A stretch of 45,951 nt of DNA from a bacterium (lineage in GTDB: Bacteria > Gemmatimonadota > Glassbacteria > GWA2-58-10). The DNA lies in NCBI GenBank assembly GCA_021372515.1, contig JAJFUG010000146.1, positions 1-45,951 of the forward strand, in the 5' to 3' direction. Below, piece after piece: positions 571 to 40,993 of the stretch. The first letter of the stretch is position 1. The number at the start of each line of letters is the position of its first letter. Made by a program: the position numbers and the translations under genes. Below the pieces are notes generated by a model, which did not search any database, was not told where the DNA came from, and saw nothing but the letters and a program-made list of their open reading frames with translations.

Positions 571-2901
571 TCAATGCACCGTTTTCACACCCACATGCAG
601 ACAGCCCTCTCCGGCAGGTTGACCGGTCACCGGCTGACTGTCCAAATACAGGGCGGTCCGGTCAGAAAGCGTCCGGACCGTGGCCTCGCCCGGCGTGGGG
701 GCGTCGCCCTGGCGGCTCTCCAGCTTGCCGGAAACCCAGATCTGGACGCCATCCGCCGAAACACTGGCCGTGCGGCCGGAGCGGGCCAGGTCGCTGCCGT
801 TCCAGGCCAGAGCGCCGCCCTCGCCCAGGACATAGCCCCTCACCGCGCCGTCCGTGCCCACCCGCACCAGTCCCAGGTAGCCCTGCAGCCGCATCCCGCC
901 GCAGGTGATCTCCGGCGCGGGCCCATCCAGCGAGTCCTCGGGCTGCCAGAGCAGAAGGTCGCTGAACCCCTCGCCCTCCACGGTCAGGCTCACTGCGCGC
1001 GGGTTGCCTGTGACCGCCGGGCCGGCCTTGACCGTGGGTTGCGGTGCGCCCTTGGCCCAGGCCGCTGCCAGGGCCACGTAGCGCACCCGGCTGCCGTTCT
1101 GGTGCACCTTGATCAGGCCCAGATCATTGCTGCGGCGCTTTCCCGGGCTGACCACCCGGCTGAAACCGAGCGCTGGCCGGGCCGGTTCGAGGAGCGTGAT
1201 CGAGCAGTCGGCATTCTGTCCGTGGAGCAGGACCGGGTCGGCCGCGGCGCCCGTGCCGCTCACTGTGCTGTCGGGGCAGAACCACTGCCAGTCGTAAGCG
1301 TGGCGGCCGGTGCTCTGCTGGATGTCATCGGTCACCAGCAGGTAGGGCGCGGCGCCCTGCTTGACGAACAGGACCGCGCGGTCGGCGCGCAACGCCGGGC
1401 AGCTTCCCGGCACCGAGTTGTCGTGGTAGGAGTTGCGGGCATCCCCGCGGGCGTAGTCGGCGAAATGCCCCAGGCCCAGGCCCACCATCAGCCCGCCGGT
1501 GGAGCAGTCATCCCCGGCCGACCCGGGCCGGTCGTGGGCCGGCCACCCGCCTCCGTCCACGATCACGATGTTGTGCTCCTTGTCCGCGCCGTGGTCGGGG
1601 TCGGAATAGCTGTATATATTGCGGTGCGTGCCGAACTCATCCCCGAACGCGTGGAACAGGAACGTGTTGTGGTCGTAGTGCTGGTGGTTGGCCCCGGTGT
1701 AGCGGGTGACGAAAGCGAAGAAATGGGCGCGCTCGTTGTCCCATTCCGAGCGGGAGAAAATGTACCCGGCGCGGAACGGGGCGATCTCGAAATAACAGGA
1801 GGTCGGCCAGCCGGCCTGCCCCGGGCTGACCGCGGCCAGGCTGTCCGGCCACCAGAGGAACGTCATCAGGGGGTCAAGACGCTTGCGGTCGGTGTATTTC
1901 TCGAAAGTCCAGAGCGCAGCCGAGTCCTGCATCTCGCCGATGCCCAGCATATAGGAGCCGACAAACACCCGGCGACCGTACTCGGTGTTGTCGCCCACCG
2001 GGGCGCAGCCGCCCTGGGGCAGCCACTGGAACACCTGATAGTGCATGGCGTTGATCGCGCCGCTGCCGTGCACGATGTCCTCCCCGCCGGTGCGGCGCAG
2101 CGCCTCGCCGAACTCCAGGGCGTTGCGGGTGTACTGGGCGTAGCAGGGGCCCTCGTAGCAGATGCCGTTGGCGCGCCAGGCGGTAGGGAAATAGTTGTCC
2201 CGGATGCGCTGGGTGCAGCTTTCGAACCATTTGCCGAAATCCGGGTGCGTGGCCTCGCCGCGGATCGCGGTGCACAGAAGCCCCAGCGCCCCGACCGGGA
2301 TCGCCCCGCAGTTGTAGGAGGCATCCCGCCACCACCAGGATTCCGTGTGGTCGTAGAGGGCCTGGCACCAGAGTTCGAGCTTGGGCAGGGCCTCGGCGCG
2401 CTCCTCGGCGGTCATAGCCTCGTACAGCCAGTCCCAGGCGCAGGCGAAAGCCAGGGGCCAGTTCTCGGTCTCGAAGAAATCGTCGTTCACTTTCTTGTAG
2501 TACTCGACCGGGTCGGTGCTGCGCAGCACCTGCATGAAAGTATCGATGGCCGCGCGGGCGTCGGCCTTCTCCCCACTGACCTGGTAGAGAAGGGCCATGG
2601 CGCGCAGGCGATGGGCTTCCCAGGCCCCCTCGAAACGCACCGTGGAGTCGGAGTGGGCCAGGCTGACAATTTTCTGCCAGGCCTCGCCGGGAAGGCCCTC
2701 GGCCTTGGCGCGCTCGCGCAGGGCGGTCAGCTCCTGCTTCGAGAAGATAATCCCGGGGTGCGTCCCCGGCGGCACGACCACATAGGCGTGGCCGCCGGCC
2801 CGGGCCGGTGCTCCCGGCGCGGCGCTTCGCCCGCAGGAGACGGCCAGCCCGGCAAGCAACAGGCAGAGTGTGGACCGAAATGCGATTCTAAGCCGTGACA
2901 T
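571..2901 (-). CDS. Heparinase II/III-like polysaccharide lyase lipoprotein
   Basis: A 776-residue exported protein. The N-terminus is a lipoprotein signal ending LAVSC (Cys23 would be lipidated), followed by a low-complexity linker. Residues about 45-400 look like the alpha/alpha toroid of polysaccharide lyases, rich in Trp and Tyr (ESWWWRDASYNCGAIPVGAL). The middle contains GANHQHYDHNTFLFHAFGDE, typical of the heparinase II/III C-terminal domain, in which a His/Tyr pair performs beta-elimination on uronic-acid polysaccharides. The last ~350 residues look like beta-sheet. The start ATG follows AGGAAAGAGG. It lies 49 bases downstream of a GH2 glycosidase on the same strand, so the pair probably forms a uronic-acid glycan utilisation operon. 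The family is fairly certain; the substrate (heparin-like, alginate, ulvan or pectin-like) cannot be decided. Confidence 0.8.
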   Translation of the reverse strand: MSRLRIAFRSTLCLLLAGLAVSCGRSAAPGAPARAGGHAYVVVPPGTHPGIIFSKQELTALRERAKAEGLPGEAWQKIVSLAHSDSTVRFEGAWEAHRLRAMALLYQVSGEKADARAAIDTFMQVLRSTDPVEYYKKVNDDFFETENWPLAFACAWDWLYEAMTAEERAEALPKLELWCQALYDHTESWWWRDASYNCGAIPVGALGLLCTAIRGEATHPDFGKWFESCTQRIRDNYFPTAWRANGICYEGPCYAQYTRNALEFGEALRRTGGEDIVHGSGAINAMHYQVFQWLPQGGCAPVGDNTEYGRRVFVGSYMLGIGEMQDSAALWTFEKYTDRKRLDPLMTFLWWPDSLAAVSPGQAGWPTSCYFEIAPFRAGYIFSRSEWDNERAHFFAFVTRYTGANHQHYDHNTFLFHAFGDEFGTHRNIYSYSDPDHGADKEHNIVIVDGGGWPAHDRPGSAGDDCSTGGLMVGLGLGHFADYARGDARNSYHDNSVPGSCPALRADRAVLFVKQGAAPYLLVTDDIQQSTGRHAYDWQWFCPDSTVSGTGAAADPVLLHGQNADCSITLLEPARPALGFSRVVSPGKRRSNDLGLIKVHQNGSRVRYVALAAAWAKGAPQPTVKAGPAVTGNPRAVSLTVEGEGFSDLLLWQPEDSLDGPAPEITCGGMRLQGYLGLVRVGTDGAVRGYVLGEGGALAWNGSDLARSGRTASVSADGVQIWVSGKLESRQGDAPTPGEATVRTLSDRTALYLDSQPVTGQPAGEGCLHVGVKTVH

Positions 2902-2950
2902 CCTCTTTCCTCTCTCCTCAGGTAAGCGTTTCGCAATCGTCCCGGAATAT

Positions 2951-4768
2951 CTATTTCTCGTAGGCCGCCTGGCGCGAGTTGATCGCGCGCAGCACCGCGC
3001 TGTCGAACTTGGGCTTGCGCTCGTAGGTGTAGATCCCGTTCACCTCCTGCTCGATGTCGTAGAGCTGGGTGAAACAGAAACCGAACATTTTCGGGTTGTC
3101 CAGCAGGGCGTCGGTCAGGCCGCGGTAGCGCTGGAGGTACTCCTCCACACTCCTGGGCCGGCCTCCGTAGCCCCAGGCCGGTCCGCCCGCCTGGCCGGGG
3201 TTCCACCAGATGCCGCCGTACTCGTCCACGATGTAGGGCTGGCCGGCATAGGGAGCGTCATGCTCCGGGTCGAAACGCCAGGGCTCGCCGCCGGCGCGGA
3301 AAGGCTCGAAAAAGGCGGCGAACTTGGCCGGGTCGCCCTCGTAGTTGTGCACGCTGTAGATGTCGGTCTGGACGTGGCGGAAACCGCTGACATCGTGGAC
3401 CGGTCGGGTGGGATCGAGGGCCTTGGTCGCGAGGTAGACCGTGCGCAGCAGCCAGGGGTCGGTGTCGCGCGGGGTCTCGTTGAACGGGGTCCACATCACG
3501 ATGGAGGGATGGTTGAAATCCCGTTCCAGCTCGGTGAGCCACTCGGGCAGCACGCGCTCGAGGGTGGCCGGGCTGGCGTGGTCGATCCCCCAGTTGGGGA
3601 ACTCGCCCCAGCAGAGGTAGCCCAGACGGTCGGCCCAGTAGAGGAAACGCGGCTCGAACACTTTCTGGTGCAGCCTCGCGCCGTTGAACCCCACGGCCTG
3701 CGACAGCTCGATGTCACGCTTCAAGTCCGCGTCCGTGGGCGCGGTGTAGATACCCTCCGGGTAAAAACCCTGGTCCAGCACCAGGCGTTGGAAGACTTTC
3801 TTCCCGTTGAGCAGCACATTGATCCCCTCGACCGTCACCTCGCGCATCCCGAAATAGCTTTTCACCCGGTCGACAACTTTCCCGTCCTGCTCCAGCGTGA
3901 GTTCCAGGTCATAGAGGAACGGGTCGCTTATCTGCCAGAGACGGGGCTTGGGGATTTTTACGCTGAAAGGCGCACCCTGGCCGGCCGGGACAACCGCCTC
4001 GCCCACTTTCTTTCCCCCGGCCGAGACAACCGCCTTGAGGCGCAGGCCGGGCGTGGGGTCCACCACGCTGGCGTTGAAAAGCGCCGCGCCCGCGGTGAGG
4101 TCGGGGTAGACGCGGAAGCTTTTCACGTAGGAGCGGCCCACCGCCTCCAGCCAGACTGTCTGCCAGATGCCGGTGGTGCGGGTGTAGCTGCAGCCGGCCG
4201 AGAAATATTCCGGGCACTGCTTGCCCGCGGGCTGGACCCCGGCGCGCAGGTCATCCGTGCAGCACACGACCAGCACACCTCTGCCGGGCTTGACCTTGCC
4301 GGTCAACTCGAAGACAAACGGGGTGTATCCGCCGCGGTGATCGCCCACCGGCTCGCCGTCCAGCCAGACTTTCGTCTCGTAGTCCGCGGCCCCGAAATGC
4401 AGCAGCACTCGCCTGCCCTGCCAGGCTTCGGGGATTTCCAAGGTCCGGCGGTACCAGACACTGCTCATGAAATCGACATTGGCGATCCCGGACAGACGGC
4501 TTTCCGGGCAGAACGGCACGTTGATCGTTTTCGAGAAAGCCGCCCCGGCATTCTGCAGGCCGCGCGCTTCGCCGGAAACCCCCGGGTCGAGCTCGAACTC
4601 CCAGGGGCCGTTGAGGTTAATCCAGTCGGCGCGTTCGAGCTGCGGCTCGGGGTGCTCGGGACGGGGGATGTCGGCGCAGCGCAGGGCCGTGGCCGCGGCA
4701 AAAAGGCCCAGGCAGGCCAGGGTGAGGGAAACTGACAGCAAACGGTGGAATGAACCAGGTCTGATCAC
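2951..4768 (-). CDS. Glycoside hydrolase family 2 protein (beta-galactosidase/glucuronidase-like), exported
   Basis: A 605-residue GH2-type exo-glycosidase. An N-terminal hydrophobic signal segment (residues about 8-30) indicates export. Next comes the sugar-binding jelly-roll (LNGPWEFELDPG, then WYRRTLEIPEAWQGRRVLLHFGA), an Ig-like domain, and a TIM barrel starting near residue 310. The acid/base is probably Glu431 in WTPFNET and the nucleophile Glu516 in IVDEYGG, both in the usual GH2 positions. It is short for a beta-galactosidase and ends just after the barrel, like many Bacteroidetes-type GH2 proteins. The start is GTG at 4768 with GGAGG six bases upstream. It is the first gene of the pair with the heparinase-like lyase and would trim sugars from the lyase products or side chains. 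The substrate is unknown. Confidence 0.88.
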   Translation of the reverse strand: MIRPGSFHRLLSVSLTLACLGLFAAATALRCADIPRPEHPEPQLERADWINLNGPWEFELDPGVSGEARGLQNAGAAFSKTINVPFCPESRLSGIANVDFMSSVWYRRTLEIPEAWQGRRVLLHFGAADYETKVWLDGEPVGDHRGGYTPFVFELTGKVKPGRGVLVVCCTDDLRAGVQPAGKQCPEYFSAGCSYTRTTGIWQTVWLEAVGRSYVKSFRVYPDLTAGAALFNASVVDPTPGLRLKAVVSAGGKKVGEAVVPAGQGAPFSVKIPKPRLWQISDPFLYDLELTLEQDGKVVDRVKSYFGMREVTVEGINVLLNGKKVFQRLVLDQGFYPEGIYTAPTDADLKRDIELSQAVGFNGARLHQKVFEPRFLYWADRLGYLCWGEFPNWGIDHASPATLERVLPEWLTELERDFNHPSIVMWTPFNETPRDTDPWLLRTVYLATKALDPTRPVHDVSGFRHVQTDIYSVHNYEGDPAKFAAFFEPFRAGGEPWRFDPEHDAPYAGQPYIVDEYGGIWWNPGQAGGPAWGYGGRPRSVEEYLQRYRGLTDALLDNPKMFGFCFTQLYDIEQEVNGIYTYERKPKFDSAVLRAINSRQAAYEK

Positions 4769-4862
4769 AGTCGGCCTCCGGAAGAATTGGTAGTCGTATC
4801 GATGATTGCGACGTCAGGCAGGGATGACAGAAGAATAAACCGGTCCGGGCGGAATGAAAAGC

Positions 4863-4905
4863 AAAAAAGAGGCGGCCGGGACCATGGTGCGACAGTCCCG
4901 GCCGC
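4863..4905 (-). terminator. Rho-independent terminator of the ldhA-like gene
   Basis: A perfect 11-bp inverted repeat (4872-4882 with 4895-4905, GCGGCCGGGAC) has a 12-base loop. On the minus strand it is followed by a run of six T (4868-4863). It lies 29 bases after the stop codon of the D-lactate dehydrogenase gene. Confidence 0.85.
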
Positions 4906-4933
4906 AAGTTGAAAAGCCAAGCCACACGACAAT

Positions 4934-5923
4934 TCAGGCGAGCACGGTCTCGGGCAGGAACGGACGGCCCTCGGCCAGGGCGGCCAGGTTCTGCACGGTC
5001 ACGCGGGTGATCTCGGCCAGCGCCTCCTGGGTCAGGAAACCCTGGTGCGAGGTGATCAGCACGTTGGGGAAAGTGAGCAGGCGCGCCAGCTCGTCATCCT
5101 CCAGCACCTCGCCGCTCAGGTCCTCGAAGAACACGCCCTCCTCCTCCTCGTAGACATCCAGGCCCACGCCGCCGATCTGCCCGGTCTTGAGGCCGCGGAT
5201 CAGGGCGCGCGTGTTGATCAGCTTGCCCCGGCTGGTGTTGATGATGTACACCCCGCGCTTCATCAGGCCGATCGTGCGGTCGCCTATCAGGTGGTGGGTC
5301 TCGGGCGTGAGCGGGGTGTGCAGGGAGAGCACGTCCGCCTGGGCCAGGATTTCATCCAGCGGGGCGAAAGACACCCCGCACCCGGCGGCCCATTTCTCGT
5401 CCGGATAGGCATCCCAGGCCAGCACGCGCGAGTCGAAGCCGCGAAAAATCCGGGCCGCGATCCGCCCGATCTTGCCCGCACCCAGGATGCCGACAGTCTT
5501 GCCGCAGAGGTCGAACCCCACCATCCCGTTGAGCGAGAAATTCAGCTCGCGCACACGGTTGAACGCCCGGTGGATCTTGCGGTTCAGGCAGAGCAGAAGG
5601 GCCACCGTGTGCTCGGCCACCGCGTTGGGCGAGTAGGCCGGCACGCGCACCACCGGCAGGCCGATCTCGGCGGCGTGCTTGAGGTCGACATTGTTGAACC
5701 CGGCGCAGCGCAGGGCCACCAGGCGCACGCCCTCGCGTTTCAGGCAATCCAGGCAGCGGCTGTCCACCCGGTCGTTCACGAACACGCAGACCGCATCCGC
5801 CCCGTTCGCCGCGGGCGCGCTCTCGCAGCTCAGACGCATTTCGAGGAAGCGCCATTCGATCTGCGTCTCTTTTTCAAAATTTCGCTTGTCGTAGGGTCGT
5901 GTGTCAAAAAACGCCACTTTCAT
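4934..5923 (-). CDS. ldhA: D-lactate dehydrogenase, fermentative type (D-2-hydroxyacid dehydrogenase)
   Basis: 329 residues, the same length as Escherichia coli LdhA, which reduces pyruvate to D-lactate with NADH in the cytoplasm. The family signatures are in order: RCAGFNNVDL and VPAYSPNAVAEHTVAL in the catalytic domain, the nucleotide-binding GILGAGKIGRI, then the active-site residues Arg232 (NTSRGK), the Glu pair around 259-261 (DVYEEEE) and His293 (TSHQGF), all offset by three from the E. coli numbers. The FFEDLSGEVLEDDELARL insert is typical of the LdhA subgroup. The start ATG at 5923 follows GGAGG. The gene stands alone, closed by a strong terminator. It suggests lactate fermentation; a related 2-hydroxyacid substrate is possible. 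Confidence 0.9.
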   Translation of the reverse strand: MKVAFFDTRPYDKRNFEKETQIEWRFLEMRLSCESAPAANGADAVCVFVNDRVDSRCLDCLKREGVRLVALRCAGFNNVDLKHAAEIGLPVVRVPAYSPNAVAEHTVALLLCLNRKIHRAFNRVRELNFSLNGMVGFDLCGKTVGILGAGKIGRIAARIFRGFDSRVLAWDAYPDEKWAAGCGVSFAPLDEILAQADVLSLHTPLTPETHHLIGDRTIGLMKRGVYIINTSRGKLINTRALIRGLKTGQIGGVGLDVYEEEEGVFFEDLSGEVLEDDELARLLTFPNVLITSHQGFLTQEALAEITRVTVQNLAALAEGRPFLPETVLA

Positions 5924-6236
5924 CCCAGCCTCCAGTCATTCACTCGGTATCCCTGTCCAAAAATCGGGTGCGCCGCGGGAGCGAAGCCCGCAGCATCGCT
6001 ATAAGCATACTGAAACGGTTCCCTCGGAGCAAGCCCGCAGGACAGCTTGAGATTATTCTTGCATTTCGGGGCAATCAATGCTACACATTATTTATTACAA
6101 AATGCTCCCAATCCCGGGCGGCTGAAACTCCGTCTTAAATCCAGTCGATTCCAGCCGGATGATCCCGGAAGCGGAGTATCTTCGTTCCATTCCCCTGCTC
6201 CAACGAAGCGAAAACGGAACAAGCCGGGAGGTTGTC
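5924..6236. other. Divergent intergenic region between ldhA-like and the Cys-rich gene
   Basis: About 313 bases that must hold both divergent promoters. Two imperfect copies of a GC-rich motif around an AAGCCCGCAG core stand about 50 bases apart (roughly 5977-6003 and 6027-6051), the first folding as a GCGGG..CCCGC hairpin. The right half is AT-richer. No riboswitch family was recognised. Confidence 0.4.
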
Positions 6237-6722
6237 ATGTCGAGACGGTTGAGCGGTTGGGCGTCAACTCTGTTGATTCTGTCCCTGGTCCTTTGCCTGG
6301 GCTCCCCGCTCCAGGCCGCCTGCTCGGGAACGAGAGGGCGCACGGTCACGGCATTGGCCACATGCGGCTCGGGAACCTGCACCTGCACCAATTGCACCTG
6401 CACCGGCTGCACCAACACCGCTTGCCTGACAAAGAGCGGCACCCTGAATGTCAGCCTGTCGCCGTCCCTTCTTTCCCTTCTGGACAAGATGCCCCGCCTG
6501 CGCGCGGTGCTGCAGGGCCTGCTGTCCATCGTCACTCCGCAGACACTGCTGGCCGACGCCGATGACGTGGCCGCCACGGCGACCTGCACCGGCACTTGCA
6601 GCGGCACCTGCACCGGGACCTGTAGTGGCACCTGCGGCGGATCGGGTTCCGGCTCGTGCAGCGGCAGCGGCGCAGGCTCTGGCAGCGGCGGCTGCGGCGG
6701 ATCGGGGCACTGCTCCAGGTAG
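6237..6722 (+). CDS. Exported cysteine-rich protein with TCxG tetrapeptide repeats
   Basis: 161 residues, of no family I recognise. The start ATG at 6237 has GGGAGG at the right distance. A clear Sec signal peptide covers residues 1-27 (basic start, LLILSLVLCLG core, cleavage near LQA-AC). The mature part has 16 cysteines in two blocks of eight, separated by a normal amphipathic stretch of about 50 residues (SLLSLLDKMPRLRAVLQG). Block one is spaced C-x-C-x2-C-x-C-x2-C around GTCTCTNCTCTGCTNTAC. Block two is five tandem TCxG units followed by a Gly/Ser tail with three spaced Cys. Synonymous codons vary between the tandem units, so the repeat is kept at protein level. Possible roles are a disulfide-rich surface or adhesive protein, a metal binder, or a modified-peptide precursor; none can be proved here. 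Confidence 0.75.
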   Translation: MSRRLSGWASTLLILSLVLCLGSPLQAACSGTRGRTVTALATCGSGTCTCTNCTCTGCTNTACLTKSGTLNVSLSPSLLSLLDKMPRLRAVLQGLLSIVTPQTLLADADDVAATATCTGTCSGTCTGTCSGTCGGSGSGSCSGSGAGSGSGGCGGSGHCSR

Positions 6723-6750: not shown

Positions 6751-6780
6751 AAAAAAAGGGGCGCGCCAAGGCGTGCCCCT
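6751..6780 (-). terminator. Terminator of the cupin gene, possibly bidirectional
   Basis: An 11-bp stem (6757-6767 with 6770-6780, one wobble or mismatch position) with a very short loop. On the minus strand seven T follow directly. It also lies 35 bases after the stop of the plus-strand Cys-rich gene and has GTTCGTTTTG on that side, so it may serve both convergent genes. Confidence 0.75.
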
Positions 6781-6824: not shown

Positions 6825-7139
6825 CTAATCCAGCTCCACCAGCAGCAATTGGATCGGCTGGCCGCCCACCTGGATGATATGACGGTTCTCCTCGCCCTGG
6901 GGCAGGATGAAAGCCTGGCCCGGGGCCAGCCCCAACTGCCCGCCGTCCATCTCCAGAACGGCATTTCCGGAGAGCACATAGCCGCTGTGCCCGCGCAGGC
7001 ACCAATCCGGCTCGCGGAACCCGGCGGCAAACTCCACCAGGCGCACGCGCCAGCCCGCGTGCTGCAGGATCTTGAACCGCACCCCAGGGATGCCCTCGCG
7101 CCACTGGACAGCCTCGAAATCGCTCCAGCCCACGTTCAT
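6825..7139 (-). CDS. Small cupin-domain protein
   Basis: 104 residues from the ATG at 7139, which has GGAGG eight bases upstream; an upstream in-frame ATG at 7163 lacks such a site. A single beta-barrel cupin is visible: GWRVRLVEFAAGFREPDWCL, GHSGYVLSGNAVLEMDGG, then LAPGQAFILPQGEENRHII. The usual metal-binding HxHx motif is not intact (WCLRGHSGY has one His), although EENRH near residue 87 may contribute. Such proteins bind small ligands or metal, or act as minor isomerases; the specific role is unknown. It lies just downstream of the prepilin peptidase gene on the same strand (37 bases) and may be its last operon member. Confidence 0.75.
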   Translation of the reverse strand: MNVGWSDFEAVQWREGIPGVRFKILQHAGWRVRLVEFAAGFREPDWCLRGHSGYVLSGNAVLEMDGGQLGLAPGQAFILPQGEENRHIIQVGGQPIQLLLVELD

Positions 7140-22479: not shown

Positions 22480-22998
22480 ATGCACGAGAAGAGCATCGAG
22501 CTGTTGAACAAGGCGATCCAGGATGAGATGAGCGCCGTGCACCAGTACATGTATTTCCATTTCCGCTGCGATGACATGGGCCTCGACCCGCTGTCGCTGC
22601 TGTTCAAGCAGACCGCAATCGAGGAGATGCTGCACGTGGAGCGTCTGGCCGAGCGTGTCCTGTTCCTCAAGGGCGAGGTGGAGATGTTCGCCTCCGGCGC
22701 GGTGCAGAAAATCCACGACGTGAGGGAGATGCTCAAGCAGGCCTCCGCCATGGAGCAGGGCAGCGTGCGCGACTACAACCTCTGGGCCAACGAGTGCTCG
22801 GCCCATGCCGACTCGGTCTCCAAGAAGCTGTTCGAGGACCTGGTTCTGGACGAGGAGCGGCATTACGACCAGTTCGACACCGAGTTGGACAACCTGGCCC
22901 GCTACGGCGACAACTACCTGGCCCTGCAGTCGATCGAGCGCAGCAAGACAATCTCGCAGCGTCCGGCTGGCGGCGGAGCAGCCGGCGGCCAGGCCTGA
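22480..22998 (+). CDS. bfr: Bacterioferritin (heme-binding ferritin)
   Basis: 172 residues; a four-helix ferritin with a diiron ferroxidase site that oxidises and stores iron and consumes peroxide or oxygen. Predicted ligands are Glu16, Glu49, His52, Glu92, Glu125 and His128. The EMLH pattern keeps the heme-ligating Met50 of true bacterioferritins. It has a Gly/Ala-rich C-terminal tail (GGGAAGGQA). The start ATG follows TGGAGG, and a consensus promoter lies 120 bases upstream. No bacterioferritin-associated ferredoxin gene is adjacent. The gdhA gene follows on the same strand after 173 bases, with no clear terminator between them. Confidence 0.92.
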   Translation: MHEKSIELLNKAIQDEMSAVHQYMYFHFRCDDMGLDPLSLLFKQTAIEEMLHVERLAERVLFLKGEVEMFASGAVQKIHDVREMLKQASAMEQGSVRDYNLWANECSAHADSVSKKLFEDLVLDEERHYDQFDTELDNLARYGDNYLALQSIERSKTISQRPAGGGAAGGQA

Positions 22999-40510: not shown

Positions 40511-40993
40511 ATGGATATCTTCGAATTTGCGATGAAGTTCGAGAAGGATGGGGAAAACTACTACCGTGAAATAGCCGCAAAGGCTGGAGACAAAGGCCTG
40601 GCGACAATCATGAACATGCTGGCGGATGAGGAGGAGCACCACTGGCAGGTCCTTTCCGAGATGAAACGACGCACGCCCAAGCTGCCCCCGACCGACATCC
40701 TGAAGAACGTGAAGAACGTATTCGAGAAGAACGCCGGCAACAAGGGCTTTTTCAATCCGGACAAGGCCCAGGTGGAGCTGTACAAGCACGCCCAGGAGCT
40801 GGAGAAGCAGAGCGAGGATTTCTACCGCGCCAAGGCCGCCGAAGTGAAAGAGGCCGCCCAGAAAGACATCCTGGCGCGCCTGGCCGAGGAGGAGCACCGT
40901 CACTATTTCGTCCTCGAACACATCATCCAGTTCGTGAGCCGTCCCGAGAACTGGCTGGCCGACCGCGAGTTCACCAACCTGGACAAGTTCTGA
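40511..40993 (+). CDS. Rubrerythrin-like diiron protein
   Basis: 160 residues made of four helices. The two diiron helices are visible: EKDGENYYREIA with ADEEEHHW in the first half, and ELEKQSEDFYRAKA with AEEEHRHYFVLEHI in the second. The C-terminal rubredoxin domain of true rubrerythrins (CxxC) is absent, so it is the short ferritin-like type. Such proteins scavenge peroxide or handle iron. The start ATG follows TGGAGG; a good promoter lies upstream. A perfect terminator follows, so it is a single-gene unit. Together with bacterioferritin and peroxiredoxin it is part of the oxygen defence encoded in this window. Confidence 0.88.
   Translation: MDIFEFAMKFEKDGENYYREIAAKAGDKGLATIMNMLADEEEHHWQVLSEMKRRTPKLPPTDILKNVKNVFEKNAGNKGFFNPDKAQVELYKHAQELEKQSEDFYRAKAAEVKEAAQKDILARLAEEEHRHYFVLEHIIQFVSRPENWLADREFTNLDKF

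Follow-up and report, generated by a model that had tools for sequence, protein, structure and literature searches.

The window analyzed here, a 45,951-nucleotide stretch of DNA from a single uncultured bacterium, carries on its forward strand an open reading frame (positions 6237-6722) encoding P0001, a predicted exported protein of 161 amino acids with 16 cysteines. This frame was the best of six by host codon usage. It is preceded by a Shine-Dalgarno sequence, GGGAGG (6226-6231, +), 5 nt upstream of the ATG, and followed by an intrinsic-terminator hairpin of 10 pairs with a T-rich tail (6757-6780; z = -4.05 on the + strand and -2.30 on the - strand), in line with an earlier sequence-only reading that described a clean gene with a good start and terminator. 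A convergent cupin gene on the - strand ends at 6825, so the two genes may share this terminator. No sigma-70-type promoter was recognized. The window also contains a cluster of heparinase-like, GH2 glycosidase, and 2-hydroxyacid dehydrogenase genes (571-5923); the product of 571-2901 appears heparinase-like from its sequence and matched no Pfam family.

P0001 begins with a predicted Sec signal peptide, recognized by eye (residues 1-27, MSRRLSGWASTLLILSLVLCLGSPLQA; 6237-6317, +), which includes C20, the seventeenth cysteine of the protein. Its probable cleavage site lies between LQA and AC, where QAAC forms a poor lipobox, and AF2 placed a low-confidence helix at residues 6-21. Translation confirmed the features on which the sequence-only reading was built (16 cysteines split evenly between two blocks, a run of five TCxG units, and a Gly/Ser/Cys tail), and the export that it predicted agrees with the signal-peptide-like N-terminus. 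Cys block 1 (residues 29-63; 6321-6425, +) has cysteines at positions 29, 43, 48, 50, 53, 55, 58, and 63 and includes the metallothionein-type motif CTCTNCTCTGC (C-x-C-x2-C-x-C-x2-C, residues 48-58; 6378-6410, +), detected by pattern match and by a profile match of 25.4 bits. The regular C-x-C-x2-C spacing reported earlier for this block is present, but the full metallothionein arrangement had been missed. The middle segment (residues 64-115; 6426-6581, +) is without cysteines and, judging by its sequence and AF2, Leu-rich and helix-prone; it had earlier been described as a normal amphipathic segment, but its hydrophobic moment is modest (0.14-0.30) and supports amphipathicity weakly. The cysteines of block 2 (117, 121, 125, 129, 133, 141, 153, and 159) are distributed over the five TCxG units, in the order TCTG TCSG TCTG TCSG TCGG (residues 116-135; 6582-6641, +), where every fourth residue is Cys and the DNA contains a 24-nt tandem repeat, and over a Gly/Ser-rich tail with three cysteines (residues 136-161; 6642-6719, +). 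The composition of P0001 is rich in Gly, Ser, and Thr, its only His is close to the C-terminus, and its Cys content is the highest among 1189 crudely predicted host genes (about 1.7 of 4.9 Mb). The protein has no CxxCH and is therefore not a c-type cytochrome; its AF2 model showed no confident fold (mean pLDDT 44).

When the six frames were scored by host codon usage, the sense frame gave -0.023 bits per codon; the best-scoring antisense frame, likewise without stops, reached -0.143. The synonymous codon fit of the middle segment (0.724) was as good as that of neighboring genes (0.40-0.73), and the fit was poorer in block 1 (0.209) and in the signal peptide (0.049). Both Cys blocks contain tandem DNA repeats. 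The two 24-nt copies encoding TCTGTCSG differ at four sites, all of them synonymous, as had been noticed from the codons of the repeats; the probability of drawing only synonymous changes in four random ones is about 0.004-0.007. The hexamer ACCTGC occurs 6 times against 4.9 expected from host codon usage, that is, without excess. Codon fit, synonymous repeat differences, and hexamer count are modest, concordant signs that selection has probably acted on the protein.

No homologue of P0001 was found elsewhere in its own genome, in five genomes of the same family (all class members searched), in 55 other genomes of the phylum, or in GTDB contigs, viral contigs, and phage and plasmid collections. 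Pfam, NCBIfam, and the PDB gave no significant match, which bears out the earlier assignment to no known family. Several candidates were rejected: a match in genome G033 (E = 8e-4) reflected low-complexity Gly/Ser similarity, weak matches of residues 28-115 in G002, G003, and G005 were ordinary proteins or wrong frames, and the PDB matches were Gly/Ser linkers. A scan of 395 genomes of the phylum for TCxGTCxGTC returned, apart from the P0001 gene, minisatellite-like frames only. A minisatellite with five TCGG units and synonymous differences (locus L031; G039, contig C41, 6687-6740, -) lies inside a 289-aa open frame; it appears to be a non-coding repeat with no relation to P0001. The P0001 gene looks real and is unusual; having been met in a single genome, it counts as an orphan. 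Its host may belong to a small class, perhaps Glassbacteria, of a phylum that resembles Gemmatimonadota.

Genome G001, the nearest sister, has dehydrogenase, GH2, and heparinase-like genes in the same order (68, 62, and 55% identity) but lacks the P0001 gene; its dehydrogenase is preceded by a 182-aa gene of unrelated sequence. What lies between prepilin peptidase and GH2 varies from one sister genome to the next; GH2 directly follows prepilin peptidase in G004, and other genes occupy the slot in G005. From this comparison, the P0001 gene occupies a variable position within a neighborhood that is conserved in other respects, and the conserved surroundings argue for assigning the contig to this lineage.

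The C-x-C-x2-C-x-C-x2-C arrangement of block 1 is that of classical metallothioneins. Composition-preserving shuffles indicate that neither this spacing nor that of C(x3C)4 is likely by chance. The block 1 arrangement arose 559 times when block 1 was shuffled 200,000 times and 307 times when the mature protein was (at most 0.3%), and the corresponding counts for C(x3C)4 were 162 and 281 of 200,000; the motifs were picked after seeing the sequence, so these frequencies are optimistic. Within its own genome, CTCTNCTCTGC was the sole match to the motif that reads in frame as a Cys-rich protein. A 60-aa protein encoded in the same genome (L226, 7221-7403, -) combines a hydrophobic segment at its N-terminus with a C-terminal CGCGCGCG tail and may be a second thiol protein that is exported or anchored in the membrane.

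Scanning GTDB contigs for C-T-C-x2-C-T-C-x2-C yielded at least 18 short peptides of 32-42 aa, most of them from Flavobacteriaceae (L042, L046, L057, L074, L091, L093, L101, L110, L113, L120, L122, L125, L137, L142, L147, L149, L152, and L157), with a consensus of about MKNxxCTCNCxGCKxGNCxNCTCxNCTCxNCNC. From their sequences these peptides look like miniature metallothioneins; the two that were scanned gave no Pfam or NCBIfam match, and OsmC-like and ECF sigma factor genes were found nearby in 4/4 loci examined. CTCxxCTCxxC is common to these peptides (e.g., MKNNCTCNCTGCKSGNCKNCTCTNCTCSNCNC, L122) and P0001, but the peptides have no signal peptide, middle segment, or TCxG block and belong to a different phylum. 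A profile of the peptides scored 38.6 bits on P0001, a value equaled by 5 of 2000 block-1 shuffles. The likeness is confined to Cys/Thr spacing, may be convergent or compositional, and is no proof of descent.

Compared with metallothioneins (the animal CxCxxCxCxxC type and bacterial SmtA/BmtA), P0001 shares C-x-C and C-x2-C motifs, a very high Cys content, few aromatic residues, and probable disorder without metal, but differs in its signal peptide, its Cys-free, Leu-rich middle, and its C-x3-C block. Membership of the metallothionein superfamily is not claimed on account of two defining features: P0001 gave no detectable sequence match to a curated metallothionein family or a solved metallothionein, and in place of a small cytosolic protein without an export signal we find, by eye, a signal-peptide-like N-terminus. 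One published account (PMC8790569) describes the bacterial metallothioneins known so far as proteins of the cytosol. The Gly/Ser/Cys-rich C-terminus of P0001 is shared with azole-containing microcins (LAP/TOMM) and the heterocycloanthracin family, from which P0001 differs in having a Sec signal in place of a RiPP leader and a genome without YcaO. The C-x3-C spacing is used by Csps too. Among these, Csp1 is an exported, Cys-rich Cu-storage protein and provides a functional precedent (PMC7558416). P0001 is likewise Cys-rich and predicted to be exported, but Csp1 carries a Tat signal and folds into a rigid bundle of four helices (PMC7558416), whereas the Cys blocks of P0001 are Gly/Thr-rich, are not predicted to be helical, and have no Pfam match; the AF2 model (pLDDT 44) is too poor to judge whether P0001 forms a Cys-lined bundle of this kind. 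Thr-Cys-Thr triplets also link P0001 to the insect TCT antifreeze proteins (Tenebrio type), a resemblance raised in the sequence-only reading. Those proteins have 12-residue repeats (TCTxSxxCxxAx) with inner disulfides; the analogy proved superficial and was rejected, because the repeat period is wrong, with Cys every 4 residues in P0001 rather than a 12-residue coil.

We considered that P0001 could be a lineage-specific, Sec-exported, thiolate metal-binding protein working like a metallothionein, and this is the reading we favor, with a probability of roughly 40%. For P0001 we infer export, reduced thiols, metal binding, and a role of the middle segment. After Sec export the protein would be located outside the inner membrane, where block 1 (CTCTNCTCTGC and flanking cysteines) would hold soft ions, for example Zn, Cd, or Cu(I), in a metal-thiolate cluster. 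Eight further thiols in a looser arrangement would come from block 2, with its flexible TCxG/GSC sequence, and the Leu-rich middle would act as a spacer between the blocks or as an attachment to the membrane or envelope. The metallothionein-type motif in block 1 supports the metal-ligand reading; with no relative found, a metal-binding role is plausible rather than proven. Against it stand the C-x3-C spacing of block 2, which is not of metallothionein type, the signal peptide, the single His, the lack of homologues showing Cys conservation, and the fact that no metal transporter or regulator was recognized beside the gene.

The two main rivals see P0001 as an envelope protein rich in disulfides or as a low-complexity orphan of recent origin. 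According to one published account (PMC11208910), extracytoplasmic disulfides are normally formed by DsbA with DsbB or VKOR. Neither DsbB nor VKOR was detected in the host genome (99.5% complete), with control searches giving their expected signals, and DsbB was not found in five sister genomes either. These results make free thiols outside the cytoplasm plausible and weaken one half of the earlier proposal of eight disulfides or metal ligands, the other half being strengthened by the block 1 motif. If P0001 were nevertheless an exported structural protein of the envelope or extracellular space, its 16 cysteines would form pairs or cross-links between chains once outside, with the help of oxidants from the medium or of an oxidase that the DsbB and VKOR searches did not recognize; such a divergent oxidase is conceivable. 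The Sec-type signal peptide, the even and balanced Cys count, and a Gly/Ser/Thr-rich composition typical of extracellular structural proteins are all consistent with this account, but C-x-C pairs are poor neighbors for orderly disulfides. Even Cys counts exceeded odd ones (74 versus 50; p = 0.04 against 50:50) among exported non-cytochrome host proteins with 2-10 Cys, a weak excess in a range that itself favors even counts, and a first, smaller sample without the non-cytochrome and 2-10 filters was reversed (41 even, 52 odd); both surveys used a crude gene and signal-peptide predictor that missed the true start of the P0001 gene. We regard a disulfide-bonded P0001 as doubtful, and the balance tilts to reduced, metal-binding thiols, with oxidation by other means possible. 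Ferritin-like and rubrerythrin-like proteins are encoded elsewhere in the window (22480-22998 and 40511-40993) and are compatible with an oxygen-sensitive lifestyle.

An origin of P0001 as a recent orphan restricted to its lineage, with low-complexity, Cys-rich blocks produced by repeat expansion and cysteines that serve no defined chemistry, would fit the absence of homologues wherever searched, the repeats in both blocks, the lack of a confident AF2 fold, and the variable slot among sister genomes. The exclusively synonymous differences between the 24-nt copies, the ACCTGC count, the genuine start and stop signals, and a host-like codon choice that is best in the middle segment all speak against it, and we consider it unlikely. 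A RiPP precursor, with the Cys/Thr/Ser/Gly-rich blocks as a core modified to azoles or lanthionines, is suggested by the microcin-like tail, by Thr and Ser adjoining Cys as in lanthipeptides, and by the sole NCBIfam echo (E = 7.3), a heterocycle-bacteriocin family; this is very improbable, however, as YcaO (controls gave signals in 5 genomes) and a LanC-like protein are both absent from the host genome, no RiPP enzyme was recognized within the window, and a Sec signal peptide would be an unusual leader for cytosolic RiPP maturation. Least probable of all is a GC-rich, non-coding repeat region with a chance open frame, compatible with the DNA repeats, the stop-free antisense frame, and the missing homologues, since Shine-Dalgarno sequence, signal peptide, terminator, synonymous repeat differences, and host-like third positions agree on one frame.

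Returning to the metallothionein-like reading, P0001 may tentatively represent a new exported metal-sequestering type that combines a metallothionein-type cluster, a helical spacer, and a C-x3-C array in an envelope without the usual oxidases, a broader proposal that we hold with considerable reserve. If P0001 is an exported metallothionein, some bacteria would rely on reduced extracytoplasmic thiols to trap metals, a strategy workable only in a non-oxidizing envelope. If its cysteines instead form disulfides, a lineage without recognizable DsbB or VKOR would still oxidize a 16-Cys substrate.
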